Origin: Sulfurovum sp.
GTDB taxonomy: Bacteria > Campylobacterota > Campylobacteria > Campylobacterales > Sulfurovaceae
Direction of reading: 5' to 3'
Assembly (NCBI GenBank): GCA_028684885.1
Contig: JAQUFB010000003.1
Coordinates: 1 to 44,793 of the forward strand
Length of the DNA stretch: 44,793 nt
A program made the position numbers and the translations under genes. Shown here piece after piece: positions 236 through 44,227 of this stretch (within the stretch, counting starts at the first letter, position 1; every line of letters starts with the position of its first letter). Under the pieces are notes generated by a model. The model saw nothing but the letters and a program-made list of their open reading frames with translations. It ran no database searches and was not told where the DNA came from.

Positions 236-267
236 TTACTCCAGATGAACACTTTCACCTGGAGTAA
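236..267 (-). terminator. Rho-independent terminator downstream of fumC
   Basis: TTACTCCAG (236-244) pairs with CTGGAGTAA (259-267), with inner TGAA/TTCA; on the minus strand it is followed by TTTTTATTTTTCC. Confidence 0.8.
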
Positions 268-271
268 AATG

Positions 272-1672
272 TTACGCTTTAGGAGCGATCATCTCCTCCG
301 GCTTCACGGCAGCATCAAACTCTTCAGCGGACATAAGTCCAAGATTTACGGCCTCTTCTTTCAGCGTTGAACCGTTTGCATGCGCTGTTTTTGCGATCTT
401 CGCTGCATTCTCATATCCAATATACGGGTTGAGTGCTGTTACCAACATTAACGAATCATTTAGGAATCTCTCTATATTCTCCTTCAATGGCACGATACCG
501 ACTGCACAGTTCTTATCAAAACTGACCATTGCATCTGCCAAAAGTCTGGTAGACTGCAGGATATTATAGGCGATCACGGGTTTAAATACATTCAGCTCAA
601 AGTTACCCTGACTTGCGGCGATACCTACAGTCGCATCATTTCCCATTACCTGTACGGCTACCATTGTCATCGCCTCAGCCTGTGTAGGATTCACTTTACC
701 CGGCATGATAGAAGAACCTGGTTCATTTGCAGGGATCTCGATCTCTGCAAGCCCGCATCTTGGACCTGATGCCAACCATCTGATATCATTTGCGATCTTC
801 ATCAAGTTTGCAGCCAGCGCTTTGAGTGCGCCTGAAAGTACCACTTCTGCATCATGTCCGGTCAACGCATGGAATTTATTGGGTTGAGAAACAAAACCGT
901 AATTTTTTTCCATGAAACTATTGAGCTGAGCTGCTACTTTTTGTGAGAATTCAGGGTGGGAGTTCAGCCCTGTACCTACGGCTGTACCACCAATTGCCAA
1001 TTCTTTACAGTATTCAAGCGCATCATTGATCTGCTTGAGATTTGTTTCCAGCATCGCTACATAACCCGAAAGCTCTTGTCCGAGTGTCAAAGGCGTCGCA
1101 TCCTGAAGGTGAGTTCTACCGATCTTTACAATATTCTCAAAAGCTTTTGATTTAGCATCCAGTGTATCTTTCAGTTGATTGAGTGCCGGGATCAATTGAT
1201 CTGTCACGGCGACAACTTCAGCAATACGCATAGCGGTAGGATAGGTATCATTGGAACTCTGCCCTTTGTTGACATCATCATTGGGGTGGACCAGTTTCTC
1301 TTTGGTAAAATCTCCACCGAGTATCTCAGTGGCTTTGTTTGCTACCACTTCATTCATATTCATATTGGACTGTGTACCAGAACCGGTTTGCCATACTACC
1401 AACGGAAAGTTATCGTCAAGTTTACCGCTGAGTACAGTGTCGCAGGCTTTGGTGATCGCTTCAGTCTTTTCATCGTTCAGGCGACCGAGTTCGTTATTTA
1501 CGAGTGCACATGCTTTTTTGAGATTTGCAAAACCGTATACCACTTCCAAAGGCATCTTCTCGTTTCCGATCTCAAAATTAAGTAGTGAACGTTGGGTCTG
1601 CGCAGCCCAATACTTATCTGCAGGAACCTGCATCTCCCCCATTGTATCTTTCTCTATTCTGTATTCCATCAT
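272..1672 (-). CDS. fumC: Fumarate hydratase class II
   Basis: 466 aa; contains [16 protein letters not shown] and [14 protein letters not shown] fumarase/aspartase signatures. Confidence 0.95.
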
Positions 1673-1678
1673 TGTCTC

Positions 1679-2641
1679 CTAATTAAAAAATTTGTTCTCT
1701 CTGAGCGTATCAATACCTTCCCGGATAGAATCTATAGAAACCTTAAACTTCATTTTTGTCTCTTCATCCAACTCCATCTCAATGATCTCTGCAACCCCGT
1801 TACGCCCAAGTATCACCGGTACGCCGGCTGTTACATCACTATAACCGTATTCTCCATCCAGCAATACAGAAGAAGAGACAACAATACGGGCATTATCAAG
1901 TATGGCCTCTACCATATGCGCCACGGCACGGCCAGGGCCATAATAGCCAGAGGTCCCCAAGTGTTTCACGATCTCTGCACCACCATTTTTTGTACGTTCG
2001 ATGATCTGTTTCATCTCTTCTTTTGTCAACAGTTCTGAAGCATTCACTGAACCTATCTGTACCTTCTGTGGCAAAGGTATCATATTCTGACCATGTTCAC
2101 CAATGACAAGATCACCGGTTTGTGTCATTCCATAGCCCAGTTTTTGATAGATCTGATATGCCATTCTGGCACCATCCAGTGCCCCGGCCATTCCTATGAT
2201 ACGATGACGTTCCCATCCTGTCATCTTGTGGATCACATAGGTCATCACATCCAGAGGATTTGATACACAGATAATGATGGCATCCGGAGAATTTTTTGCT
2301 ACGTCCTCAACCACCTCTTTCATGATCTTCGCATTGATCATCAGAAGATCCGCTCTGGTCATTTCACCTTTTCTGGGTACACCTGCAGTGATCACGACAA
2401 TATCACAATCTTTGATATCTGCTGCACATTTTGCTGCGGTTACCCGTACTCCTTTGGGCGAGTAATGGGCCGCCTGCCCCATATCAATCGCTTTACCCTG
2501 TGCTACACCTTCGGCGATATCAAAAAGAATGATCTCCTCACAACTGCCCGTCATGACCAATGAGTATGCTGCCGTAGCACCTACGGCACCGGCACCTACG
2601 ATCCCTACTTTACGTCCTGCCACACTATGCCTCTTCGTCAA
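1679..2641 (-). CDS. mdh: Malate dehydrogenase (LDH-like family), NAD-type Rossmann signature
   Basis: 320 aa; GAGAVG Rossmann loop, IILFDIAEG (Asp at end of beta2), PRKGEMTRADLL, GEHGQNMIPLP. Confidence 0.88.
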   Translation of the reverse strand: MTKRHSVAGRKVGIVGAGAVGATAAYSLVMTGSCEEIILFDIAEGVAQGKAIDMGQAAHYSPKGVRVTAAKCAADIKDCDIVVITAGVPRKGEMTRADLLMINAKIMKEVVEDVAKNSPDAIIICVSNPLDVMTYVIHKMTGWERHRIIGMAGALDGARMAYQIYQKLGYGMTQTGDLVIGEHGQNMIPLPQKVQIGSVNASELLTKEEMKQIIERTKNGGAEIVKHLGTSGYYGPGRAVAHMVEAILDNARIVVSSSVLLDGEYGYSDVTAGVPVILGRNGVAEIIEMELDEETKMKFKVSIDSIREGIDTLRENKFFN

Positions 2642-3584
2642 AAAACTTCAGTTCATAGAGCTTGTCTACCATCTCCTGTACCGCAGCCACAGACTTGGCA
2701 AAACGTTCCTGCTGAAGCGGTTTAAGTGTCATGTGTATCACCTCTTCTCCCCCGCCTGCACCGATCATCACAGGAACACCGGAGACAATGCCTGAATATC
2801 CATAATCATTTTCAAGCATAATGGCACAAGAGTGAATCTGCTTCGTATCTCTCAGCATAGACTCTACCATGATCGCCGTAGATTTTGCCGGTGCATAGTA
2901 TGCCGAACCGTCACCCAGAAGGTTGACAATCTCTGCACCTCCGTTTCTAGTCTTCTGGACAATTTCACCGATCTGCTCTGCATCAAGCAGGTCTTCGATC
3001 GGTACTCCTGCTACCGTTGTAAACTTCGGCAGAGGAACCATCGTATCGCCATGTCCCCCCATCACAGTCGCACGGATCTGGCCTGCGCCATACTCAAGTT
3101 GTTCATAGATAAAGTGCGCCATACGTGCAGCATCCAGGATACCGGCCATCCCAAGCACTCTTTCTCTGGGAAATCCTGTAACTTTTTGTGCAACATACGT
3201 CATCGCATCGAGCGGGTTGGATACAACAATGATGATAGACTCGGGAGCATACTCTTTGATCTCCAGCGCATATTTTTTCACGATCGCTGCATTTTTGGTA
3301 AGCAGATCATCTCTGCTCATACCTGGTGTTCTTGGCGCACCCGCGGTGATCACTACGATATCAGAACCGGCGATATCCTCAGGCCCCCTTGCTGCCCTTA
3401 CAACTGTATGCTGACGTGCTGCGTTCGCAGCCTGGGACATATCAAGTGCTTTTCCTCTTGCCTTGTCAATATCACGTCCTCTTAATACGACATTGTGGCA
3501 TGCTCCGTTCATTGCCAAAATAAATGCAACGGTTGAACCGAAGTTGCCCGTTCCGACAACGGTTACTTTTCTACCTTTAGCCAT
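2625..3584 (-). CDS. Malate dehydrogenase paralog (LDH-like family), NADP-like Rossmann signature
   Basis: 319 aa; GTGNFG loop, VVLRGRDID, PRTPGMSRDDLL, GGHGDTMVPLP; tandem and overlapping with the preceding mdh. Confidence 0.88.
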   Translation of the reverse strand: MAKGRKVTVVGTGNFGSTVAFILAMNGACHNVVLRGRDIDKARGKALDMSQAANAARQHTVVRAARGPEDIAGSDIVVITAGAPRTPGMSRDDLLTKNAAIVKKYALEIKEYAPESIIIVVSNPLDAMTYVAQKVTGFPRERVLGMAGILDAARMAHFIYEQLEYGAGQIRATVMGGHGDTMVPLPKFTTVAGVPIEDLLDAEQIGEIVQKTRNGGAEIVNLLGDGSAYYAPAKSTAIMVESMLRDTKQIHSCAIMLENDYGYSGIVSGVPVMIGAGGGEEVIHMTLKPLQQERFAKSVAAVQEMVDKLYELKFFDEEA

Positions 3585-3772: not shown

Positions 3773-3797
3773 ACACTGCATCCTTTTGATGCAGTGT
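3773..3797 (-). terminator. Hairpin terminator downstream of icd
   Basis: Perfect 10-bp stem ACACTGCATC/GATGCAGTGT with 5-nt loop; followed on the minus strand by TTCTTATC (weak U-tract). Confidence 0.6.
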
Positions 3798-3822: not shown

Positions 3823-5997
3823 TCAGATAGCGTCAATGATACTGTTGAGTGTCGCAGACGGTCTCATCGCCGCTTCAGTTTTTGCATCATCCGGGTGGTA
3901 GTATCCCCCGATATCCTGTGCTTTACCCTCTACAGAAAGAAGTTCTTCCATGATTTTTGTTTCATTGGCTTCAAGTGCTTCGGCAACCGGTGCAAATTTT
4001 GCAGCAAGTTCAGCGTCTCCACTGTTTGCCAATGCTCTTGCCCAGTACTGAGCCACGTAGAAGTGGGATGCTTTATTGTCAGGCTCTCCCGCTTTTCTTC
4101 CTGGCGCCTTGTTGTTGTCAAGGTATCCCTGGTTAGCCTCATCAAGTGCCGCTGTCACAGCTGCAAGTTTCGCGTCCGGATACTTCTGGTCAATCATTCT
4201 CAGTGACTCGGCAAGTGCAAGGAACTCACCAAGAGAATCCCATCTCAGGTGACCTTCGGCAAGGAACTGGTCAACGTGTTTAGGCGCTGAACCGCCTGCA
4301 CCGGTTTCAAAGAGACCGCCGCCGGCGATCAACGGAACGATTGAAAGCATTTTTGCAGATGTTCCAAGCTCCAGGATCGGGAAGAGGTCAGTCAGGTAAT
4401 CTCTGAGAACGTTACCGGTTACAGAAATCGTATTGAGACCTGCTCTCACTCTTCTCAATGTGTATTTCATCGCTTGTTTTGGCGCCATAATGTGATACTC
4501 TATCGGCGTCTCTTCAAGGAGCGGAGGCAAGTATTCCATCACTTTTTTGATCATATTGGCATCGTGTGCTCTGTTTGAATCCAACCAGAATACAATCGGC
4601 TCACCCGTCAATCTTCCTCTTTCATGCGCAAGTCTTACCCAGTCTTTGATCGGGATATCTTTTGCTCTGGACATTCTCCAGATATCACCTTTCTCAACCT
4701 TAAAGCTCATAAGGACTTCACCGTTTTGAGTGACTTCTACCACACCGTCTTCTGCCATTTCAAAAGTCGTCGGGTGTGAACCGTACTCTTCAGCTTTTTG
4801 AGCCATAAGACCGACGTTCGCAACGCTCCCCATTGTCGTTACATCAAATTGGCCGTTTTTCACACAATCATCAACGATCTCTTTGTACATTGTCCCATAA
4901 GCTCTGTCAGGAATTACAGACATACACGTCTGTACGTTGCCGTCCTTGTTCCACATTTTTCCACCGTCTCTTACAACAACCGGCATGGAAGCATCGATAA
5001 TGATGTCATTGGAAGCGTGCAGGTTGGTGATACCGTTGTCAGAATCAACCATCGCGATAGCCGGGCTTGCTGCATCGATCACCGCTTTCAGGTCAGCTTC
5101 AACTGCATCTTTGATATCTGAGTTTGCAAGTTTCTTTGCAAGATCGCCAAGTCCTAGGTTCGGATTTACCCCAAGTGCTTTGAACTGCTCAGCATATTTT
5201 TCAAAGACATCTTTGAAAAATACCTCAACAGCGTGGCCGAACATGATCGGATCAGATACTTTCATCATAGTCGCTTTGAGGTGGATAGACCAGAGTAGCC
5301 CCTCTTCTCTTGCTTCTTCGATTGTCTCCGCGATAAATGCTCTAAGCGCTTTTGCAGACATAAATGTACCGTCAAGTACTTCTTTGTCCTGAACATCTGT
5401 CAACTCTTTCAATACTTTACCATTGAGAGAAATCGTTACATTTTCGTTGCTGGATGTGATCACTGATTGTTCATTTTCATAAAAATCGCCATCGTTCATA
5501 TGCCTTACACATGCTTTGGAATTCTCTTCGAATGCTCTGAGTTTATGCGGGTTTTTCTGTGCGAAGTTTTTTACTGCAACTGCTGCACGTCTGTCTGAGT
5601 TACCTTCTCTCAGTACCGGGTTAACCGCTGAACCAAGGCAGGTGTTATACTTCTCTCTGATCGCTTTCTCTTCATCCGTTTTCGGGTCTTCGGGGAAGTT
5701 AGGAATGTCATATCCCTGTTCCTGAAGCTCTGCGATACACTCTTTGAGCTGAGGGATAGATGCGGAGATGTTTGGAAGCTTGATAATGTTACCTTCAGGA
5801 TTTAGTACAAGCTCACCCAGTTTTGAAAGTTCATCTTCTGCTTTACCCATCGCCGCAAGTACGCGACCTGCAAGCGAGATGTCACTCTGTTCAAGTTCTA
5901 CACCGCCAGCTGCACAGAATTTAGATGCAATCGGGAAAAACGAATATGTTGCCAAAGCCGGAGCTTCGTCAATTTTTGACCAAATGATTTTTGCCAT
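3823..5997 (-). CDS. icd: Isocitrate dehydrogenase, monomeric NADP-dependent type
   Basis: 724 aa; MAKIIWSKIDEAPALATYSFFPI N-terminus and DNGITNLHASNDIIIDASMP typical of monomeric IDH. Confidence 0.94.
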   Translation of the reverse strand: MAKIIWSKIDEAPALATYSFFPIASKFCAAGGVELEQSDISLAGRVLAAMGKAEDELSKLGELVLNPEGNIIKLPNISASIPQLKECIAELQEQGYDIPNFPEDPKTDEEKAIREKYNTCLGSAVNPVLREGNSDRRAAVAVKNFAQKNPHKLRAFEENSKACVRHMNDGDFYENEQSVITSSNENVTISLNGKVLKELTDVQDKEVLDGTFMSAKALRAFIAETIEEAREEGLLWSIHLKATMMKVSDPIMFGHAVEVFFKDVFEKYAEQFKALGVNPNLGLGDLAKKLANSDIKDAVEADLKAVIDAASPAIAMVDSDNGITNLHASNDIIIDASMPVVVRDGGKMWNKDGNVQTCMSVIPDRAYGTMYKEIVDDCVKNGQFDVTTMGSVANVGLMAQKAEEYGSHPTTFEMAEDGVVEVTQNGEVLMSFKVEKGDIWRMSRAKDIPIKDWVRLAHERGRLTGEPIVFWLDSNRAHDANMIKKVMEYLPPLLEETPIEYHIMAPKQAMKYTLRRVRAGLNTISVTGNVLRDYLTDLFPILELGTSAKMLSIVPLIAGGGLFETGAGGSAPKHVDQFLAEGHLRWDSLGEFLALAESLRMIDQKYPDAKLAAVTAALDEANQGYLDNNKAPGRKAGEPDNKASHFYVAQYWARALANSGDAELAAKFAPVAEALEANETKIMEELLSVEGKAQDIGGYYHPDDAKTEAAMRPSATLNSIIDAI

Positions 5998-13691: not shown

Positions 13692-15419
13692 TTATTTCGT
13701 AATAGAGATGTTATGATGCTCCATATCACATGTGCCGTTCTCAAAATCCATCGCTTTGGCATTATCCATCAGGATCGGGACAAAGAGAAGCGATACAAAT
13801 ACCGCAGCGACCGTACCTGAGATCAATGCAACTCCGAGACCCCCAAAGACAGGATCACTCGCAAGCAGTGCCGACCCAAGGATGATCGCCACAGCCGTCA
13901 ATGCGATAGGCTTCGCCCTTGTTGCCGTGGCGACTGCGATCGCTCTGCGTTTCGGCATCCCCTGGCACTCCATCAATGACTTGGCAAAGTCGATCAGCAG
14001 CAGCGAGTTTCTTGAGCTGATTCCCATCAGTGCGATAAAGCCAATCAGCGAGGTTGCCGTAAGGAAGAAGGTTTCGCTCGTAAACCAGTTTGCCACCCAG
14101 TGTCCCACGATCACCCCGATAAGCGAAAGGAAGGAACCGAGCAGGATGATACCGCTGAGCACAAAACTCTTGTAGTAAACCACTAGCAACAGGAAGATCA
14201 AAACCAGTGCGGCGATAAATGCACCGCCAAGATCCCTGAAGGTATCCAGCGTCACCTTCATCTCGCCATCCCAACGGAGCAGAAACTTCTCTCCTGTTTC
14301 CCTGTCCGTCAGGTGCAGATCGAACATATAGGTATTGATACCCGGTTCTTTTTCAACGATATACTCCTTCTCGAAATACTCCATCATCTGCGCTCTGGCA
14401 TCAAGTAACGGATAGACCTGGGAGACCATATCTGTCTCTGCGACCACATTGATCATACGGCTCAGATTTTTATGCATGATCATCGGATTGGATTTCACTT
14501 TTTTGATCTGCACCACTTCACTCAAAGGCACCATCATTCCCTGCATATTCATCAGGTTGAGCGAAGAGAGCTTGCTTTTGAGCGCATTTTCTTCTTCTGA
14601 AAAGAGCTTCTTGCTCTCTTTTTCCAATACCAGGAAAATGGGAATCTGATCGGTGGAATTATTCGAGTTTTTATGCGCGACCACCATCCCCTCAAATGCT
14701 AGGTAGAGGATATTATTAACCTGCTCGACACTCAGACCTGAACGTGCGATCTTCTCTTTATCCGGAATCAGCTCATATTTGTCAAAAATCTCATCCGCCA
14801 TGACATCAACATCCACAAGTCCTTTTGTCTGACTGAGGATCTCAGAGGTCTCCAGTGCCACTTCTCTGATCTTTTTAAGATTCTCGCCATGAACTTCGAC
14901 AACAACAGAAGCCATTGTCGGAGGGCCTGCAGGCTGCTCGATGAACTTGATATTGGTCTCTTTGACCAGAGGGAGGCAGGCCTCTTTTATCACGGGACGC
15001 AGACGCTGTACCATCAGGAACGAAGGTTCCTCACGGTGGTGCTTATCGGTAAGGTTGACCGATATCTCGGCAACATTTTCCGTCTGTTTCATACTCGCAC
15101 CTTTGACCAGACCTGCATAATCCAAGGGGATCCCCTGCCCCAGGAAGAGCTCGATATGCATGATCTCCTCTTCCTTCTTCAGGAAATCGATCACACAGGA
15201 GCTGACCTTTTTCGTCTCTTCGATCGAAGAGCCTGTAGGGGTGTCGATATAGATCGAGAAGGTATTGTCACTTTTGCCCGGAAGCATCTTCGCCAGAACC
15301 ATTTTGGTAGGAAACATCAAGAGCGAAGCGAAGAAGGCTACGGCAGTCAGAGTGACTACAAGTTTCTTCTTTTTCTTTTCATTGAGGATGTCATAGATAA
15401 AATTTTCCAATTTTTTCAC
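13692..15419 (-). CDS. RND efflux permease, C-terminal half (TM7-TM12 equivalent), separate ORF
   Basis: 575 aa; starts GTG; MKKLENFIYDILNEKKKKKLVVTLTAVAFF (TM7-like), second periplasmic domain, GFIALMGISSRNSLLLIDFAKSLMECQGMPKRRAI. Confidence 0.88.
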   Translation of the reverse strand: MKKLENFIYDILNEKKKKKLVVTLTAVAFFASLLMFPTKMVLAKMLPGKSDNTFSIYIDTPTGSSIEETKKVSSCVIDFLKKEEEIMHIELFLGQGIPLDYAGLVKGASMKQTENVAEISVNLTDKHHREEPSFLMVQRLRPVIKEACLPLVKETNIKFIEQPAGPPTMASVVVEVHGENLKKIREVALETSEILSQTKGLVDVDVMADEIFDKYELIPDKEKIARSGLSVEQVNNILYLAFEGMVVAHKNSNNSTDQIPIFLVLEKESKKLFSEEENALKSKLSSLNLMNMQGMMVPLSEVVQIKKVKSNPMIMHKNLSRMINVVAETDMVSQVYPLLDARAQMMEYFEKEYIVEKEPGINTYMFDLHLTDRETGEKFLLRWDGEMKVTLDTFRDLGGAFIAALVLIFLLLVVYYKSFVLSGIILLGSFLSLIGVIVGHWVANWFTSETFFLTATSLIGFIALMGISSRNSLLLIDFAKSLMECQGMPKRRAIAVATATRAKPIALTAVAIILGSALLASDPVFGGLGVALISGTVAAVFVSLLFVPILMDNAKAMDFENGTCDMEHHNISITK

Positions 15420-17041
15420 GAGTGTGCCTCCTCATTGTGATGATGTTTATGCTTTGGTTTTTTCAGCAGTTTCAGACTCAAGTACGGGGTAAAAATATAT
15501 GCCACAAAAAGTGAAGCAATCAGTGCGACAGGTACATTATATGGGATCGGCTGCATAAACGATCCCATCATCCCCCCGACAAACGCCATCGGCACCATTG
15601 TCATAATGATCGCCAGTGTCGCCACATTGGTCGGTGCACCGATCTCATCGGTCGCTTCGACGAGCAGTTCTCCCATCTCTTTGCTCTCTACATCATGCGC
15701 ATGCAGATGTCTGTGGATATTTTCTATCACAATGATCGCTGCATCCACCAAAAGCCCCAGCGAAAGAAGGAATGCAAACAACGTGATCCTGTTGATCGTC
15801 TGTCCCGACAGATAGGCAACAAAAAGTGTGATCGCCAAAATCGCCGGTACTGTAAAGGTAACGATAATAGACTCTTTCCATCCTAGTGCGAAGACCAGCA
15901 TCACTGCAATAATAATAATCGTAATGATCAGGTGGTGCATCAACTCATTGACGGCTTCATTGGCTCTGGTACCATAGTTTCTTGTGACCAGATAGCCGAT
16001 ACCCTCTTTTTCAAATCTTGCTTCATAGGACTTCAGTACTTCCATCACTTCATCTGCAACGAATACGGCATTGGTACCCGCAAGTTTGGCAACAGTAAGT
16101 GTCACCTGTTTGGCTGATTCGCTGAACTGCTCTTCTTTGGCATTCTTATGAAGGATCTCTGCGGTTTGGAAGTTCTGAATATCGATACCTTCCGTCACAT
16201 TTGCAACATCCTTCAGATAGATCGGTGAGCCCATATACTGCGCGACCATAACATTGCCCACATCATCTACGCTCTCTATCGCATTTTTCACTCCGAAAAC
16301 CACAAGCGTGTTTTGCTGTGTTCGCCCCTTCACTTCAGGGACATTGACTGCCACCGACTGGACGGCTTTCATGATCTGTCCGAGGGAGAGATGATATGCT
16401 GAGAGTTTTCCCATATCCACTTCGATATTGTACTGTGCTTTACGCGCACCTTTGAGTGTGGTTTTTGCGACATTGTTGACCGAATTGAGCTTTTGCTGTA
16501 CTTCTCTGACGATTTTGAAAAGTTCTACCTCGGAGAGATCGCTCTTGGGTTTGGGATAAAAGGCAATGGTGACGATAGGGATATCAATATCGATATCAAA
16601 CGGTTTGACAATCGGCTGCATCGTTCCTTTTGGCAGCTGATCCATATTCTGCATCACCTTGTCGTAGAGCTTGAGGTTTGAGTCTTCCCTGTCCTCTCCG
16701 ATATAGTACATCACATTGACCACGCCGACATTCTCCATCGCCATGCCGTGGATATGCTCTATACCGCTGACCTCTCTCAGTTTACGCTCCAACGGATTGA
16801 TGATCACATTTTCGATCTCTTTGGGAGAAGCACCCGGCATCGGCACGATCACTGCACCGCCGGAGATAGCAATCTGGGGGTCCTCTTCACGTGGCATAAT
16901 GTTCAATGCCAAATACCCCATCAGGATCAAAAAAGCACCCAAGACCGCCGTCAAAGGGTTTCTTAAAAACCCTTTTGCAAGCTTGCCTGCAACATCGGTT
17001 ACTTGATATTCTTTCTTATTGGTGGTTTGCATCACAATCAC
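15416..17041 (-). CDS. RND efflux permease, N-terminal half (TM1-TM6 equivalent), separate ORF
   Basis: 541 aa; LTAVLGAFLILMGYLALNIMPREEDPQIA and LSLGLLVDAAIIVIENIHRHL (conserved Asp of TM4); ends in KKPKHKHHHNEEAHS. Confidence 0.9.
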   Translation of the reverse strand: MIVMQTTNKKEYQVTDVAGKLAKGFLRNPLTAVLGAFLILMGYLALNIMPREEDPQIAISGGAVIVPMPGASPKEIENVIINPLERKLREVSGIEHIHGMAMENVGVVNVMYYIGEDREDSNLKLYDKVMQNMDQLPKGTMQPIVKPFDIDIDIPIVTIAFYPKPKSDLSEVELFKIVREVQQKLNSVNNVAKTTLKGARKAQYNIEVDMGKLSAYHLSLGQIMKAVQSVAVNVPEVKGRTQQNTLVVFGVKNAIESVDDVGNVMVAQYMGSPIYLKDVANVTEGIDIQNFQTAEILHKNAKEEQFSESAKQVTLTVAKLAGTNAVFVADEVMEVLKSYEARFEKEGIGYLVTRNYGTRANEAVNELMHHLIITIIIIAVMLVFALGWKESIIVTFTVPAILAITLFVAYLSGQTINRITLFAFLLSLGLLVDAAIIVIENIHRHLHAHDVESKEMGELLVEATDEIGAPTNVATLAIIMTMVPMAFVGGMMGSFMQPIPYNVPVALIASLFVAYIFTPYLSLKLLKKPKHKHHHNEEAHS

Positions 17042-28885: not shown

Positions 28886-29046
28886 CCCTCTTCTCTCCCA
28901 CTCTTTATCGGGAGATACTGGCTATGAGAGAATCACTGTTGCATGTTCTCTCATACCCATCTCTCTTCACTACCTTTAAAACAAGATAAATTTTATCCTA
29001 TTAATCTACTAAGCACAATTCATGTATACTTATTCAATTATCATTG

Positions 29047-29122
29047 TATCTGGGGGTGGCAGTTTTGCCTGAGAAATACCCTTTGAACCTGATCCGGGTC
29101 ATGCCGGCGTAGGAAAGAGCAC
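29047..29122 (+). promoter_or_regulatory. TPP (THI-element) riboswitch upstream of the TonB receptor operon
   Basis: CTGGGGGTGGCAGTTTTGCCTGAGAAATACCCTTTGAACCTGATCCGGGTCATGCCGGCGTAGGAAAGA contains the conserved CUGAGA, ACCCUUUGAACCUGAUC and GCCGGCGUAGG blocks. Confidence 0.93.
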
Positions 29123-29190
29123 TTTCATCACTTCAAAATTTCTCCCTCTCACCCGAAAATACACCGATAAATCTATAAATCGAGGATAGT

Positions 29191-31269
29191 ATGATGCATA
29201 CAAAACTGTTACCCCTGTCACTGATCACTGCTATGGCACTGCAAAGTGCGTATGCAGAGAGTACTACAGAACTTGACCCTATCGTGGTCAGTTCGGATTT
29301 CAGGGAGAAAAAACTCTCAGAAACAAACAATGCAGTCACAGTAATCGGAGAGGAGGGAATTTACGACAAAGCCTCTCAAGCATTTATCGAAACATTATCC
29401 AGTACGCCAAATGTAAATTTTACTACCGGTGCATCTAAAGCCAAGTTCATTCAAATTAGAGGAATTGGAGAAAGAGGACAATATCAGTATCCCCTCAATC
29501 CATCAGTTGGCCTAATAGTAGATGGGGTAGACTTTTCATATATCTCTTTGGGTGCATCTATGTTTGATGTAAAACAGATTGAAGTACTTAGAGGGCCACA
29601 AGGAACTACATTTGGGGCAAATGGATTAGCTGGTGTGGTAAGTGTGCAAAGTAATGAACCGACAAGAGAAACAGAAGGCCACATCGAAGCAACGGTAGGC
29701 AACTACAATACCAAAGCTTTTGGAGCTGCTATGGGTGGAGAAATCAATAAAAACCTCTTGGGAAGATTCTCGATCTATAAAAATACTTCTGACGGTTTTA
29801 TGAAAAACAGTACCTATGATCGTGACGATACCAATAATATTGACGAACTGATAGCTAAAACACAATTACGTTGGTTCGTGTCAGAGAAGCATACGATTGA
29901 TTTAAAGTACACTCATATAGATATCGACAATGGTTATGACGCTTTTACTTTAGATAATTCTTGGATATCAAAAGCTGACGAACCGGGTAAAGATAAACAG
30001 AAAACTGATGCACTTTTCATGCAATCCCAATACGAATTTGAAACAACGAATTGGATTACGAAACTTGAAGGCAGCAAAAGCGATATTTTGTATAAGTACG
30101 ATAACGATTGGTCATATGCAGGTGCGATTGAAGACGGTGTAGTACAATATTCAGGGAGTGACTCATATGACAGAGAATACAAGAGTTGGAGTATAGATAC
30201 AAAATTGCTTTCCGATGATGCACATAAAATATTTAACGGAACAACGGATTGGACCTTGGGGCTATATCATAAAAACCAGAAACAAAAATTAGCTAGGCTC
30301 GAAAGATATGAAGAGTGGTATACACCATTAAACTCAAAGTATGATACCAAATCAACTGCCCTTTATGGACAAATTAATACTCAAATCGATTCTAAACTAT
30401 CCCTTGTTACGGGTTTAAGACTTGAGCAATGGGAAGCAAAATACAGTGACGATAATAATGACGATCTTAAATATGATGAGACAATAGCAGGTGGAAAGGT
30501 TGGATTAAACTATCAAATCAATCCATCTAACTTAATGTATTTAACTCTTTCTCGCGGTTATAAACCAGGTGGCTTCAATATTGAAAATCTCTTAACAGAT
30601 GTAGATACTACTAGCTATGATACAGAATATTTATGGAATCTTGAGGCAGGTTATAACTCATCATATTTTGAAGGTAAACTATTAAGCCGTTTAAATATCT
30701 TCTATTCCAAACGTAAAGATATACAAATTGGCACGGACATTCAAGTAGAAGATAGCTATGAAACATATATTTCAAATGCATCCAGCGGACATAGTTATGG
30801 TTTAGAATCAAGTTTGGTATTCTTAGCAACTGATAATTTAGAGCTATACAGCAACATTGGCTTATTGAAAACAAATTTTGATGAGTATGATAACCAAAAC
30901 GAAGAGGCTTATGATATCGAAGAAAGAGAATTTGCACAGGCACCGACATATCAATATGATATTGGATTTAAATACATGATTTCGGACAATTTATTAATAA
31001 AATCCAATATGACCGGTAGAGACAGTTTTTACTTTTCAGATGGACATGATCAAAAATCAAAAGCGTATAATCTTTTAAATGCAAGTATAGAATATATAAA
31101 TGGCAACTGGAGTGCTATTCTTTGGGGTAAAAACCTGACTGATAAGGAATATGCAACGAGAGGATTTTACTGGGCCAATACTCCTGCTGATGACTGGGGC
31201 AACACTAAACTATATACTCAAAAAGGCAACCCAAGAACCTTCGGTCTGACCGTATCGTACGACTTCTAA
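29191..31269 (+). CDS. TonB-dependent outer membrane receptor (predicted thiamine or thiamine-precursor uptake)
   Basis: 692 aa; signal peptide, TonB-box-like ELDPIVVSS, plug DVKQIEVLRGPQGTTFGANGLAGVVSVQS, C-terminal beta-strand ending NPRTFGLTVSYDF; preceded by a TPP riboswitch. Confidence 0.92.
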   Translation: MMHTKLLPLSLITAMALQSAYAESTTELDPIVVSSDFREKKLSETNNAVTVIGEEGIYDKASQAFIETLSSTPNVNFTTGASKAKFIQIRGIGERGQYQYPLNPSVGLIVDGVDFSYISLGASMFDVKQIEVLRGPQGTTFGANGLAGVVSVQSNEPTRETEGHIEATVGNYNTKAFGAAMGGEINKNLLGRFSIYKNTSDGFMKNSTYDRDDTNNIDELIAKTQLRWFVSEKHTIDLKYTHIDIDNGYDAFTLDNSWISKADEPGKDKQKTDALFMQSQYEFETTNWITKLEGSKSDILYKYDNDWSYAGAIEDGVVQYSGSDSYDREYKSWSIDTKLLSDDAHKIFNGTTDWTLGLYHKNQKQKLARLERYEEWYTPLNSKYDTKSTALYGQINTQIDSKLSLVTGLRLEQWEAKYSDDNNDDLKYDETIAGGKVGLNYQINPSNLMYLTLSRGYKPGGFNIENLLTDVDTTSYDTEYLWNLEAGYNSSYFEGKLLSRLNIFYSKRKDIQIGTDIQVEDSYETYISNASSGHSYGLESSLVFLATDNLELYSNIGLLKTNFDEYDNQNEEAYDIEEREFAQAPTYQYDIGFKYMISDNLLIKSNMTGRDSFYFSDGHDQKSKAYNLLNASIEYINGNWSAILWGKNLTDKEYATRGFYWANTPADDWGNTKLYTQKGNPRTFGLTVSYDF

Positions 31270-31278
31270 GGAGCTACC

Positions 31279-31533
31279 ATGCAGATCTCTGTAGATATCA
31301 GTCTCTACCCCCTCAAAGAGGGGTATGAGCAGCCGATCCTGGACTTCATCGCCGCACTGGAGAAAGAGCCGAACATAGCTATCGTACGCAATGAACTGAG
31401 CACCCAGATACACGGGGATTATGCTATCATTATGCCACTGCTGCAAGAGGAGATATATGCCGTTTTCGAGGAACTTCCCGATTCGGTATTTGTCCTCAAA
31501 CTTGTAGGAAACAACCGCCAAGGTATCTATTAG
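31279..31533 (+). CDS. Small YkoF/MTH1187-like thiamine-binding-fold protein
   Basis: 84 aa; MQISVDISLYPLKEGYEQPILDFIAALEKEPNIAIVRNELSTQIHGDY; pattern resembles the YkoF-like superfamily; TPP-regulated operon context. Confidence 0.7.
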   Translation: MQISVDISLYPLKEGYEQPILDFIAALEKEPNIAIVRNELSTQIHGDYAIIMPLLQEEIYAVFEELPDSVFVLKLVGNNRQGIY

Positions 31534-32139
31534 ATGAATGTTGATCTCGACGCCATACTCACCGCGTTTACTGCCATGCCCATAGGGGAGATCATCGCCG
31601 TCATACTCGGGATACTCTATATCATCCTCGCAGCAAAAGAGTCTGCATGGTGTTGGGTGTCAGGGTTTTTCAGTACCCTGATCTATACGATCCTTTTCTG
31701 GGAAGGGCAGCTGCTCTCCTCCGCACTCCTCAACTTCTACTATATGGGGATGTCAATCTACGGTTTTATCCTCTGGAAACGCGGCGAAGGAAGAGAGGAA
31801 AAATCTCTTGCCGTCACTTCCTGGCCGCTTTCCAGACATCTCTTCGCTATTGTGACCGGAGTGCTCTTCAGCCTTTTTGCCGGGTACCTTCTGACTGCCT
31901 ATACCCCGGCACGCCTCCCCTATCTTGATGCTGTGGTCATGGTCTTTTCCATATTCGCGACCTGGATGCTCGCACAAAAGATACTGCAAAACTGGCTCTA
32001 CTGGATGGTGATCGACGTTGCTGCGATCACACTCTACTGGTCGACAGGATACTACGTCACGATCATTCTTTTCACGATCTACGTCATACTCTCAGGCTAT
32101 GGCTATTTCAGCTGGCGCAAGTCCAAGGCAGGTGTATAG
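31534..32139 (+). CDS. pnuT: PnuC-family transporter, predicted thiamine transporter PnuT
   Basis: 201 aa polytopic; ILGILYIILAAKESAWCWVSGFFSTLIYTILFWEGQLLSSALLNFYYMGMSIYGFILWKRG is PnuC-like; TPP operon context favours PnuT. Confidence 0.85.
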   Translation: MNVDLDAILTAFTAMPIGEIIAVILGILYIILAAKESAWCWVSGFFSTLIYTILFWEGQLLSSALLNFYYMGMSIYGFILWKRGEGREEKSLAVTSWPLSRHLFAIVTGVLFSLFAGYLLTAYTPARLPYLDAVVMVFSIFATWMLAQKILQNWLYWMVIDVAAITLYWSTGYYVTIILFTIYVILSGYGYFSWRKSKAGV

Positions 32140-32859
32140 ATGGATCTTGAGCTGGAGGGCTGCCCGATTTTCCTGAAAGACCCGATCAAAACCCTCTCAT
32201 TGCTCCCCGAGCAGGGGTATTGCAACATCAACTACCTGGCGATCACCGAAAATACACGCTATCTGCTGAGAAAGCTTCAGCCCAATCAAATAGACCGTGC
32301 CTTTGAGTACCGGGTACAACACCGAGCGCACCAAAGAAAACTCGGGGCAAAACCCGTTCACTATGATGCGGAAAACTACCTCATGATCTCGGATTTTTTG
32401 GAAGGGGAACACAAGAGCAGGCTCACCCCCAGGGAACTTCGTACCCTGGCTTCCACCCTGCGCAAACTCCACAAGATCAAGCTGAGAACCAGACCCTACA
32501 GACTCAAAAAAGCGTTCAAGCCCAGACATACCAAAGCGCTTCATGCGCTCAGGAAGCTCAACAGGGAGCCCAGAGAACTTGTCCTCACCCACCATGACCT
32601 CAATCCCAAAAATATCCTCTTTCACAACCAAAAAGTGAAGTTCATCGACTGGGAATATACCGGACTCAATGACCGCTACTTCGACCTGGCAACGATCGCA
32701 GCAGAGTACCACCTCACAAAAAGAGAGGAGCACTACTTTTTAAGAAGCTACTTCAAAAACAGCGCCAGGATCAACCTCAAAAAACTCCACCTCCACAAAG
32801 AGCTTTATACCATTCTCTGTTCTCTTTGGTTCAAAAACCTTGATGAAACAAAAAACTAG
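32140..32859 (+). CDS. Choline/thiamine kinase-like phosphotransferase (predicted thiamine kinase)
   Basis: 239 aa; APH/ChoK catalytic motifs LVLTHHDLNPKNILFHNQKVKFIDWEYTGLNDRYFDLATIAAEY; TPP operon context. Confidence 0.8.
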   Translation: MDLELEGCPIFLKDPIKTLSLLPEQGYCNINYLAITENTRYLLRKLQPNQIDRAFEYRVQHRAHQRKLGAKPVHYDAENYLMISDFLEGEHKSRLTPRELRTLASTLRKLHKIKLRTRPYRLKKAFKPRHTKALHALRKLNREPRELVLTHHDLNPKNILFHNQKVKFIDWEYTGLNDRYFDLATIAAEYHLTKREEHYFLRSYFKNSARINLKKLHLHKELYTILCSLWFKNLDETKN

Positions 32860-33211: not shown

Positions 33212-33220
33212 GCGGATAAG

Positions 33221-33353
33221 TCCTTTCGGGGAGTCCAAAAGGCATCTATTTGCTAAGAGCGCAGACTTTTAGCAAATAGATGCCCAGTGGGCTGAGATGG
33301 CAGACGCCAGACCCGTTGAACTTGAACCGGATCATACCGGCGTAAGGAAGAAG
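33221..33353 (+). promoter_or_regulatory. TPP (THI-element) riboswitch upstream of thiC, with extended P3 stem
   Basis: TTTCGGGGAGTCC..GCCCAGTGGGCTGAGATGGCAGACGCCAGACCCGTTGAACTTGAACCGGATCATACCGGCGTAAGGAAG; a 16-bp helix GGCATCTATTTGCTAA/TTAGCAAATAGATGCC forms the variable stem. Confidence 0.94.
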
Positions 33354-33479
33354 GAAAGCAACGGCGCAATGACCCCTCAGGTTAGCCTGCCATTTTAGAA
33401 CACTCCATGCATCATGATGCATATCTCTCTAAAAGCTGCAACTCCGTCTTTTTTACACACAATATATTCCAATATATGA

Positions 33480-35375
<1,896 letters not shown>

Positions 35376-35385
35376 GGGGGTTTGT

Positions 35386-36429
35386 ATGAAAAAAGTAGCG
35401 ATTATCGGTGCGGGACTCCTGGGAAGGGTCACGGCACTCAACCTGTTGGAAAATGAAGATGTCGAACTGACGATCTACGAGAAAGCAGGATACGACGGTG
35501 AAGAAGCTGCCGCATCCACGGCTGCGGGTATGCTTGCACCCTTTGCCGAGCTCGAGACTGCAGAGTCAGTGATCCTGGACCATGGAATGCGATCGATCAA
35601 ACTCTGGCCTGCGATCCTGGAGAAGATCGGTATCCCCGAAGCCTACCAGCAGACAGGAAGCATCATCACTGCACACCCGCAGGACCAGGCCGAACTCGAC
35701 CGCTTCATCTCTACGCTGCATGCCAAAGTACCGGCAGCAGAAGGGATCAGGACGCTGGACAACCGTGCACTTGTGGAGCTGGAGCCTTCGCTCAAACACC
35801 ATACACAGGCATACCACCTCTATGCAGAGGGGCAGGTCAACTCTGCGATGTTCATAGAGGCATCGACGAAGTATCTGCTGGATCACCCCAGGGTGACATG
35901 GTATGAAAACCACCCGGTCGATGAGGGGCTCAGTGATGTAGATACCTTCAATGCTGTTCACGGTACAGACTTTGACTGGGTCTTTGATACACGCGGTCTG
36001 GGTGCCAAAGCGGATATGCCTGATCTTCGCGGTGTACGCGGCGAGGTCTTCTGGCTGGATGCGCCCGAAGTGGATATCAGCAGGCCGACCAGGCTGATGC
36101 ACCCGCGCTACAAGATCTATATCGTTCCGCGCGCCAACCACCGTTTTGTGATCGGTGCTACGGAGATAGAGAGCGAGGATGACTCACCGATGTCGGTACG
36201 CTCTTCCCTTGAGCTGCTCTCAGCGGTCTACAGTATGCACCCGAGCTTTGCCGAGGCGCGTATCGTCAAGACAAAAACAGACTGCCGTCCGTCACTGGAG
36301 GACAACCTCCCCCGTATCGAACAGCACAAAGGGTTTACCCGTATCAACGGTCTTTACCGCCACGGCTATCTGCTAACCCCTGCCATTGTAGAGGAGGCGC
36401 TAAACACCGGCATCAGGAGAGGCGCATGA
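35386..36429 (+). CDS. thiO: FAD-dependent glycine oxidase
   Basis: 347 aa; MKKVAIIGAGLLGRVTALNLLENEDVELTIYEK dinucleotide-binding fold, DAO family, located between thiC and thiS. Confidence 0.88.
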   Translation: MKKVAIIGAGLLGRVTALNLLENEDVELTIYEKAGYDGEEAAASTAAGMLAPFAELETAESVILDHGMRSIKLWPAILEKIGIPEAYQQTGSIITAHPQDQAELDRFISTLHAKVPAAEGIRTLDNRALVELEPSLKHHTQAYHLYAEGQVNSAMFIEASTKYLLDHPRVTWYENHPVDEGLSDVDTFNAVHGTDFDWVFDTRGLGAKADMPDLRGVRGEVFWLDAPEVDISRPTRLMHPRYKIYIVPRANHRFVIGATEIESEDDSPMSVRSSLELLSAVYSMHPSFAEARIVKTKTDCRPSLEDNLPRIEQHKGFTRINGLYRHGYLLTPAIVEEALNTGIRRGA

Positions 36430-36626
36430 CGATCTACGTGAACGGTGAGAAAAAAGTTTTTGAAAAAGAACAGATGAGCGTGAGAGAGCTGCTTGATGCG
36501 CTTCAGTACAAAGAGGGATTTGCCGTGGCACTCAACACCACTTTCGTACTCAACACGACGTATGAGACAACAATGATCAAAGAGGGGGATGTACTTGACA
36601 TCCTCGCACCTGTACAAGGAGGCTGA
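36426..36626 (+). CDS. thiS: Sulfur carrier protein ThiS
   Basis: 66 aa; ends in ILAPVQGG (C-terminal diglycine); ATGA overlap with thiO. Confidence 0.93.
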
Positions 36627-36627
36627 G

Positions 36628-37440
36628 ATGAGCCATACAGATATGATAGATACACAAAACGACAAATGGATACTTGAAGGCAAGGAGTTCGACTCACGCA
36701 TGATGATCGGGTCGGCACTCTACCCTTCCCCCAAAGTGATGAAAGAGGCGATCGAAGCGTCAGGTGCACAGATCGTCACCGTATCCCTGCGCCGCCAATC
36801 CGGCGGTGACAAAGGGAACCCTTTCTGGAAAATCATCAAGTCCCTGGGTGTCCAGGTCCTGCCAAATACCGCAGGATGCCACACCGCGCAGGAGGCGATC
36901 ACTACTGCAATGATGGCGCGGGAGGTCTTCGGCACCAACTGGATCAAGGTAGAGGTGATAGGCAACCAGTACAACCTTCAGCCCGACCCCTTCGAACTGG
37001 TTGAAGCGACCAAGGTCCTTGTCAAGGAGGGGTTCAGGGTACTGCCCTATACGACGGATGACCTTGTCCTCGCACAGAGACTGGTCGATGCAGGCTGTAC
37101 CACACTGATGCCGTGGGGTTCGCCGATCGGATCGGGAAGAGGTCTGATGAATCCCTATAACCTCAAAGCGATCCGCAAACAGTTCCCGAATCTTCAGCTG
37201 ATCGTAGATGCAGGGATAGGCAAACCCTCCCACGCGATCCAGGCGATGGAGCTCGGATATGACGGGATACTGCTCAACTCCGCCGTTGCCCTTGCGCACG
37301 ATCCTGTCCAGATGGCAAGAGCCTTCAAGCATGCCCTCACAGCAGGCAGACTCGGCTACAAAGCGGGAGCGATGCAGGAGCGGGACATGGCATCTCCATC
37401 CACACCGACCATCGGTACGCCTTTCTGGCATCAAGCCTGA
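36628..37440 (+). CDS. thiG: Thiazole synthase
   Basis: [93 protein letters not shown]. Start moved from 36589 to 36628 (GGAGGCTGAG SD). Confidence 0.95.
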
Positions 37441-42068: not shown

Positions 42069-43244
42069 GTGAAACGCTCATTTATACGTGAGATACTCGA
42101 ATCGATCGACAGCGATACCATCTCTTTTGCCGGAGGACTGCCGGATGAGAAGCTCTTCCCGCTTGAAGATCTGAGAAAAGCAAGTGAAAAAGTATTTGAC
42201 AATCCTCAAAACCTGCAATACACCATCAGCAACGGCATCCCCTCCCTCAGGGAAAAGATAGCCGGTTTTTATAACAAAGAGGGCTTTGAGACCAAAGCTT
42301 CCAATATCCTTATCACGACAGGAAGCCAGCAGGGTCTTTTTATCATTGCCAAATATTTTCAAAACACGAAAATCATCGTGGAAGAGCCGTCCTACCTTGG
42401 TGCCGTCAATGTCTTTCGGATGAACGGCCTGGCGATGCAAAGCGTTCCCCTGGCATATGACGGTATTGAGAGCGGGCAGTTTGAAGATGGTTATTCCGAT
42501 ACAAAGCTGGCATACCTTATTCCGGATTTTCAAAATCCCAAAGGATCTCTTTACAGCAGCGAAAAAAGGTGTGAAGTGGCAAAGAGTGTCCTGAAACATG
42601 GCGGCTATCTCATCGAGGATGCACCCTACAGCGAACTCTACTTTGATCAGAAAATGCCAAGCATCAGCAGCCTGATCCCCGACAACAGTTTCCATCTGGG
42701 CTCTTTTTCAAAGGTACTTTCTCCGAGTTTGAGGATAGGATGGGTAAGGGCAAATGAGGAGATGATCAAAAGGCTTACCATGATCAAAGAGACCATCGAT
42801 CTGCATAGTTGCGGGATTTCCCAGTATATACTCGATCACTATCTGGAAGATCTTAACAGCTATCAGAATCACCTGGACTCCTTGAGAGGTGCCTATAAAG
42901 CAAAGATGCATGTTTTTACGAAAGCGCTGCAGGAAAACTTAAAAGACTTCCAATTGGAAGCACCCAAAGGGGGCATGTTTGTCTTCGGTTCGCTGCCCGG
43001 TGTTGATACCTTTGAGTTGGTACAAAAGTGCATCAAAGAAAAAGTTGTGTATGTCCCGGCAAACCAGTTCTATCTTGATAAGCCCATCAGCGATGAGATC
43101 CGGTTCAATTTTACCTATACTGCCCCACATGAGGTCGAAGAGGGATTGCAGCGCATCAACAAAGCATTGAAGGCATTAAAAAGAGAGTACCGGACCGGTA
43201 ACGGCCCAGACCGAAAGGGGACCATTGCAACCGTTAAGGCTTGA
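42069..43244 (+). CDS. PLP-dependent class I/II aminotransferase (MocR-effector/2-aminoadipate-transaminase-like)
   Basis: 391 aa, GTG start; TISFAGGLPDEKLFPLEDLRKASEKV, GSQQGLFIIAKYF, GSFSKVLSPSLRIGWV (PLP Lys). Confidence 0.9.
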   Translation: MKRSFIREILESIDSDTISFAGGLPDEKLFPLEDLRKASEKVFDNPQNLQYTISNGIPSLREKIAGFYNKEGFETKASNILITTGSQQGLFIIAKYFQNTKIIVEEPSYLGAVNVFRMNGLAMQSVPLAYDGIESGQFEDGYSDTKLAYLIPDFQNPKGSLYSSEKRCEVAKSVLKHGGYLIEDAPYSELYFDQKMPSISSLIPDNSFHLGSFSKVLSPSLRIGWVRANEEMIKRLTMIKETIDLHSCGISQYILDHYLEDLNSYQNHLDSLRGAYKAKMHVFTKALQENLKDFQLEAPKGGMFVFGSLPGVDTFELVQKCIKEKVVYVPANQFYLDKPISDEIRFNFTYTAPHEVEEGLQRINKALKALKREYRTGNGPDRKGTIATVKA

Positions 43245-43743
43245 TCAGAATGGGTGTCCCCACCTTGATATACTTCAGTACTTCGTCCATATCGCTGTTG
43301 TAAAGTGCGATGCATCCCGCAGTCCAGTCGGTACGCTGTTTGAAAAATGACTTCAACCATCCCTGGTTGTTCGGCTGACCGTGGATCATGATCGAACCGC
43401 CGGGACTTTTACCGATTTTTTGGGCATTGCAGCAATCGGTTGCATTGGGATATGAAATATGCAGGGCTTTATAAAAGGAGCTATCGAGTTTAAGATAATC
43501 AAGCCTATAGTAGCCCTCCGGCGTTTTTTGGTCACCTTGCACTTTTTTGTGGCCTACAGGATTTCCGCCCAGAGCAATATTGAAGGCTTTTAATATCTTT
43601 CCTTCATGTGAAAGATAGAGTTTTCTTTCTGATTTTACTACGGTAACCAGATCTGCTTTCATCTCCTGTGAGCTTGAGAGCGGTTCAATATTTGCAAAAA
43701 GAAAAATCGGAGCGATAACAAAGATAAAGAGATATTTTTTCAT
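43234..43743 (-). CDS. L,D-transpeptidase (YkuD domain), exported
   Basis: 169 aa; signal peptide MKKYLFIFVIAPIFLFA; SIMIHGQPNNQGW...DWTAGCIALYNSDMDEV catalytic motif. Confidence 0.9.
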   Translation of the reverse strand: MKKYLFIFVIAPIFLFANIEPLSSSQEMKADLVTVVKSERKLYLSHEGKILKAFNIALGGNPVGHKKVQGDQKTPEGYYRLDYLKLDSSFYKALHISYPNATDCCNAQKIGKSPGGSIMIHGQPNNQGWLKSFFKQRTDWTAGCIALYNSDMDEVLKYIKVGTPILIKP

Positions 43744-44227
43744 AACAATCCTTTAACGGGGTCTGCATCATATTAACGATCAAAAAGCAGGGGAGAGAAG
43801 AAGGCAGAATAATCCTCATGTATGGGGAAAATATACCTTTTGGGGTGTGCGGTCTGGCGATCTTTAACATAAAGACCCATGACTTTCTGTCCTTGCTTCA
43901 CAACAAGTTTAGCTTTTAACATTAATATTTGTATACATTATACTTCATAAATATTAAATAAAAATAAGATCAGTTATTTTCATGCCGTTCGTTTCCCCCT
44001 ACTCTCGCGATATGGGATCAGCAAAAAGATTACCTATCGATACACTGATCAGAGTTAAATTAATAAAAATTTAAGTTTTATTTTGTATTAAGTTTTATTA
44101 TATATAATTTCACCTGACTTCAATAAAAGAGACAATTTTTCTCTCTTAATCTCCCAAATCAAAGTTTTATCACAAAGGAGCAAACATCGAAGTACTAGCC
44201 TATACAGTTATTACATTTATCACTCTC

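Follow-up and report, generated by a model that had tools for sequence, protein, structure and literature searches.

The minus strand of a Sulfurovum contig carries two neighbouring genes of the lactate/malate dehydrogenase (LDH/MDH) family, which we call mdhA and mdhB, raising the questions of why one organism should keep two such enzymes side by side and whether they draw on different nicotinamide cofactors. To our knowledge, few bacterial malate dehydrogenases prefer NADP. The window analyzed here (the whole 44,793 bp stretch of contig JAQUFB010000003.1) derives from a metagenome-assembled genome (MAG) that is 83% complete and is most closely related, among named genomes, to Sulfurovum MAGs of the Campylobacterota. 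The mdhA-mdhB pair is also found in three single-contig genomes (G221, G225, and G264) and in many independent MAGs, and is therefore neither a chance occurrence nor an assembly artefact.

Organization of the icd-mdhA-mdhB-fumC locus

The genes are ordered icd, mdhA, mdhB, and fumC, with the following features, all on the minus strand and listed in the direction of transcription:

3823-5997, minus strand: icd, monomeric isocitrate dehydrogenase with NADP residues His574 and Arg585; upstream neighbour of mdhA
3773-3797, minus strand: 10-bp hairpin between icd and mdhA, a possible terminator or attenuator (region z-score -4.9)
2625-3584, minus strand: mdhA ('up'), LDH-like malate dehydrogenase, 319 aa, ATG start; predicted ortholog of the canonical Campylobacterota MDH, with the β2 Asp lost
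3549-3551, minus strand: Thr12 of MdhA, within GTGNFG; Thr in 38/38 Gly-Arg-type sequences vs Ala in 119/121 Asp-type sequences
3474-3482, minus strand: Arg35-Gly36-Arg37 of MdhA at the end of β2 (cofactor 2'-phosphate site), with Gly for the NAD-type Asp
1679-2623, minus strand: mdhB ('down'), predicted NAD-type malate dehydrogenase paralog, 314 aa, GTG start
2519-2521, minus strand: Asp35 of MdhB, the NAD ribose-binding Asp, conserved in 50/50 sequences
2081-2101, minus strand: GEHGQNM of MdhB; the catalytic His is kept and the next Asp (LDH numbering 197) is replaced by Gln
272-1672, minus strand: fumC, class II fumarate hydratase, 3' of mdhB
236-267, minus strand: intrinsic-terminator-like hairpin with a T-rich tail, 3' of fumC (terminator scan)

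An initial annotation of this DNA described mdhA and mdhB as tandem genes overlapping by 17 bp. Both are intact open reading frames in tandem, but the overlap hinges on a TTG start codon at 2641 that is not conserved, with L157 reading TCG at that position. The sequence GTG GCA at 2623 is present in all four of the closest relatives (L157-L160), and in more distant relatives the codon aligned with this GTG is ATG. With the mdhA stop codon at 2627-2625 and the mdhB start at 2623-2621 the genes are separated by 1 bp, and translational coupling through a 17-bp overlap is ruled out by the start at GTG 2623.

The hairpin between icd and mdhA was not among the elements listed by a simple terminator scan; the one following fumC is likely to mark the end of an mdhA-mdhB-fumC unit. 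The positions of the two hairpins suggest that the transcription unit may consist of these three genes and exclude icd. The product of icd matches TIGR00178, and its His574 and Arg585 correspond to His589 and Arg600 of the Azotobacter monomeric enzyme, which are its NADP residues and are Leu and Asp in the NAD type (PMC4360740); the window icd is thus of the NADP type. The location of mdhA directly after an NADP-type monomeric icd had been taken as a pointer to NADP use by MdhA. Position and icd type are both correct, but the adjacency carries no such information, because icd-mdh-fumC synteny is identical in genomes with an Asp-type MDH, the NADP residues are kept in all 166 icd matches of the loci including those beside Asp-type MDHs, and a strong hairpin separates icd from mdhA.

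MdhA and MdhB are both predicted malate dehydrogenases

In profile searches MdhA and MdhB match PRK06223 at 396.8 and 360.2 bits, respectively (cut-off 283), and each contains both LDH/MDH Pfam domains (PF00056 at the N-terminus and PF02866 at the C-terminus). Residues Arg102, Arg109, Asn140, Asp168, Arg171, and His195 (LDH numbering) are present in 100% of the sequences in all four MDH classes compared, and both window proteins have the dicarboxylate-binding Arg102 in place of the Gln of lactate dehydrogenases. Because all of these catalytic and substrate-binding residues are kept, both proteins should be L-malate dehydrogenases that are ordinary in their catalysis, and the interest of the pair lies in cofactor evolution and not in a new kind of enzyme.

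The motifs GGHGDTM and GEHGQNM are found as quoted in the initial annotation, which had suggested from them that MdhB may differ in substrate range. Residue 197 is mostly Gln or Glu instead of Asp among the 50 MdhB sequences, but it alone differs; the six catalytic and substrate residues are kept in 50/50, and a different substrate range is not indicated. Reassigning MdhB to the lactate dehydrogenases, or to those for other 2-oxoacids, is not supported, since Arg102 and the remainder of the site are retained.

The cofactor site of MdhA lacks the NAD-type aspartate

The two motifs reported at the end of strand β2, VVLRGRDIDKARGK and IILFDIAEGVAQGK, are both present, as is the contrast drawn between them, with Gly36-Arg37 in MdhA corresponding to Asp35-Ile36 in MdhB. 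Residues R35-G36-R37-D38 of MdhA align without gaps to Leu-Asp-Val-Val of a solved NAD-MDH, placing Gly36 on the β2 Asp. In an AlphaFold2 model of MdhA (pLDDT 93.1) β2 ends at residue 35 and the next helix begins at residue 39, such that the turn where the adenosine ribose binds, immediately after β2, is predicted to comprise residues 36-38; the structural placement of RGR proposed earlier is thus borne out by the model. The MdhA model superimposes on NAD-MDHs in the PDB with TM scores of about 0.92-0.95, and the MdhB model, which also matches PDB NAD-MDHs, has F34-D35-I36 in a topology matching that of MdhA. By the residue at the end of β2, MdhA groups with the NADP-type enzymes, having no acidic residue there, and MdhB with the NAD type, having Asp in 50/50 sequences. 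Arg37 and Thr12 of MdhA are invariant and may bind the 2'-phosphate, although Arg37 is also seen in Asp-type relatives and its setting is predicted from a ligand-free model. The window protein has Asp at position 38, where 29 of 38 relatives have Asn, and Asp38 could partly replace the lost carboxylate.

The β2 aspartate is lost almost only in genomes with a second MDH

We compared canonical MDHs at the level of genus, family, and class, with every canonical copy entered a single time and one MAG that has two such copies (G416) excluded. Of the copies that keep the Asp, 115 come from genomes lacking an MdhB-type paralog and six from genomes that have one; of those that have lost it, 45 are accompanied by MdhB and one is not. 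Genomes without the paralog thus keep the Asp in 115 of 116 copies, and the paralog is present in 45 of the 46 genomes with an Asp-less copy, a count that includes three genomes from additional searches (G381, G398, and G446) and in which absence was called at E 1e-112, G381 passing only on a looser search. The converse is not true. Some Asp-type genomes (e.g. G177 and G335) contain another family match, which at E 1e-112 falls outside the MdhB class. The sole exception to the pairing is the single-contig genome G343, whose Asp-less MDH (G343:C1:1528906-1529844, L125; motif VIIRAIEVDK) is accompanied by no second LDH/MDH-family gene; like the paired genomes, G343 carries an Mqo-like gene.

The Asp-less proteins fall into a Gly-Arg class (38 sequences, with a co-fixed change of Ala12 to Thr) and an Ala/Ser-type class (9 sequences). 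A further Asp-less motif, RSSSNPT, occurs in the canonical mdh of L131 (G044) and L241 (G314), both from genomes with an MdhB-type gene. The MDHs of other phyla included in the comparison keep the β2 Asp, 52 of them aligned directly and nine more read by eye beside a misplaced gap or shift. Gly36, Arg37, and Thr12 are invariant in 38/38 Gly-Arg sequences, and all four Gly, four Thr, and five Arg codons are used at these positions; judged by this codon pattern, the Asp loss is real, fixed, and constrained at the protein level. Its recurrence across the genomes of relatives also rules out a chance variant of one MAG.

The pairing of Asp loss with an adjacent Arg had been read as a signature of NADP preference. 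The loss of Asp stands, but the Arg did not arise with it: the motif in Sulfurovaceae relatives that keep the Asp is RDR, such that Arg37 was available before the Asp was lost.

Phylogeny of MdhA and MdhB

In a phylogenetic tree all Campylobacterota MDHs form one clade relative to the sequences from other phyla used. MdhA falls among the Gly-Arg sequences, which make up a clade (SH-aLRT 99) with Asp-type Sulfurovaceae as its sister group; elsewhere in the tree is a second clade without the Asp (RAN, RAH, RAI, and RSS; support 99-100), and MdhB and its kin form a single clade (support 100) on a long stem. By tree position, MdhA is the ortholog of the ordinary, ancestral Campylobacterota MDH and MdhB is a second, Campylobacterota-specific MDH. 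The tree requires two changes of the Asp whether the motif columns are included or removed, with a single Asp-less clade not formally rejected (AU p = 0.0521). With only two independent contrasts, the association between Asp loss and MdhB cannot reach significance (sign test p 0.5). The direction nonetheless carries information: several lineages have MdhB and keep the Asp, and Asp loss nearly always occurs with MdhB.

Within the genus, Gly-Arg and Asp genomes are equally similar to the window in the flanking genes (71.2 vs 71.4% identity for icd; 88.5 vs 88.2% for fumC), but mdhA is 83.4% identical in Gly-Arg genomes and 66.1% in Asp genomes. The Gly-Arg mdhA, often beside mdhB, thus seems to have followed a separate course from its flanking genes, although the icd-mdh-fumC neighbourhood is conserved. 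The mdhA/mdhB pairs of f6 and f7 genomes (G356, G015, and G266) group closely in both subtrees, a pattern suggesting that the two genes travelled together. Among the Gly-Arg genomes, G316, G393, G401, G429, and G434 have mdhA and mdhB at separate places.

Cofactor preference and alternative explanations

Mutation of the site at the end of β2 switches the cofactor preference of MDHs and LDHs in the laboratory (PMC5817062, PMC12609799). Replacement of the Asp or Glu by Gly, together with neighbouring changes, shifts the T. flavus, S. coelicolor, and Microcystis MDHs towards NADP (PMC5817062; PMC12609799), and G84D with its neighbours reverts the sorghum NADP-MDH to NAD (PMC5817062). In the literature searched we found no kinetics for MdhA, MdhB, or their relatives, nor any paper dealing with the cofactors of Sulfurovum or Sulfurimonas MDHs; the search did not return the classical enzyme-assay papers on vent Epsilonproteobacteria.

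Several known enzymes share features with MdhA. The ordinary Campylobacterota MDHs of the PRK06223 family resemble it in identity (~57-68%), in their position between icd and fumC, and in their catalytic residues, but have the β2 Asp (RDR, RDN, or VDR) and Ala12 in place of Gly36 and Thr12. Chloroplast NADP-MDH (TIGR01757) likewise has Gly for the β2 Asp (GSERSFQ, PMC12609799) and catalyzes the reaction predicted for MdhA, but belongs to another subfamily, MdhA scoring 30.5 bits against a TIGR01757 cut-off of 598.3. The Methanocaldococcus jannaschii L-2-hydroxycarboxylate dehydrogenase (NAD(P)+) (PDB 1hye/1hyg) is a member of the LDH/MDH superfamily with Gly-Arg at the end of β2 (LIGRE); however, it represents a distant branch outside the 60 best PDB matches of MdhA and has the loop GASGRVG and not GTGNFG. 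The Microcystis aeruginosa and Metallosphaera sedula MDHs are prokaryotic and use both NADH and NADPH (PMC12609799), but the Microcystis enzyme keeps its Asp44 and prefers NADH, whereas MdhA has no such Asp and occurs alongside an NAD-type paralog.

We propose that a change of Asp36 to Gly in ancestral MdhA would have removed a charge repelling the 2'-phosphate of NADP, leaving the pre-existing Arg37 free to face the phosphate, and that a further hydrogen bond may come from the Thr that replaces Ala12 in the glycine-rich loop. MdhA would then most likely prefer NADPH and reduce oxaloacetate to malate, and MdhB with its NAD-type Asp would carry the NADH-linked reaction, such that MdhA would have been allowed to change. 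Together with FumC the two enzymes would cover the steps linking oxaloacetate, malate, and fumarate in the (reductive) TCA cycle, with both nicotinamide pools accessible. Co-expression of the two enzymes and a division between reductive and oxidative TCA flux, as put forward in the initial annotation, are hypothetical. The pair represents a plausible cofactor switch in central metabolism. D44G alone gives just a 1.54-fold gain for NADP in the Microcystis MDH (PMC12609799), and Gly36 of MdhA would therefore need partners. With this small effect in mind we put the probability that MdhA prefers NADPH at roughly 0.65, and the same holds for the explanation as a whole, with a rebuilt cofactor site in MdhA and an NAD-type MdhB.

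The main competing explanation is that MdhA is a dual-specificity enzyme still using NADH well, with the two genes differing mainly in kinetics or regulation. The weak response of the Microcystis enzyme to a single D to G change, the existence of natural dual-coenzyme MDHs (PMC12609799), the NAD(P)+ designation of the Gly-Arg enzyme of M. jannaschii, and the Asp or Asn38 directly after Gly36-Arg37 are all consistent with this, but the co-fixed Thr12 and invariant Arg37 suggest active binding of the 2'-phosphate beyond mere relaxation, and the separate NAD-type MDH kept in almost every Asp-less genome would be redundant; about one chance in four seems appropriate. At the other extreme, MdhA could be decaying or without a role, leaving MdhB as the working malate dehydrogenase. 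The ancestral residue is indeed lost almost only where a second MDH is present, but with catalytic and substrate residues invariant in 38/38 Gly-Arg-type sequences and only synonymous variation at the Gly, Arg, and Thr positions, this is very improbable.

NADPH preference by MdhA is compatible with a further use of the pair as a soluble transhydrogenase, in which malate/oxaloacetate cycling between MdhA and MdhB would exchange electrons between the NADH and NADPH pools. The adjacency of two genes predicted to use opposite cofactors would suit this role, as would the scarcity of the membrane transhydrogenase PntB, which only 4 of 78 genomes in the Sulfurovum-like genus encode. However, PntB is rare genus-wide with or without the pair and its absence does not mark the pair; Asp-type genomes also lack PntB yet live without the pair, and mdhA and mdhB lie apart in the five genomes noted above. 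We consider this use unlikely, and equally so the broader proposal that such a shuttle replaces transhydrogenase in reductive-TCA-cycle bacteria, a second NAD-type MDH having repeatedly freed the ancestral one.

With NADPH preference as the favored reading, a change of cofactor appears to have taken place, probably twice, in a core TCA-cycle enzyme of autotrophs common at vents and seeps, in lineages that have a second copy. If so, metabolic models giving NADH to every MDH step would be wrong for these organisms, and RDR, RGR, RAN, and RSS would constitute a natural before-and-after series on cofactor choice following gene duplication.

Other features of the window

Two TPP riboswitches lie in the regions 29042-32859 and 33217-37440 (plus strand). 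One precedes genes for a TonB receptor, a PnuC-type transporter, and an APH-type kinase, likely for thiamine uptake and salvage; the other precedes a thiC-like gene, an oxidoreductase gene, and thiG. A c-di-GMP-I riboswitch (43845-43923, minus strand; 50.6 bits, cut-off 35) is situated upstream of an open reading frame at 43234-43743 (minus strand) whose 169-aa product resembles a secreted L,D-transpeptidase-type protein. An RND efflux pump at 13692-17041 (minus strand) is split into two overlapping open reading frames, coding for an N-terminal half of 541 aa and a C-terminal half of 575 aa, and adjoins adaptor-like and outer-membrane-factor-like genes.
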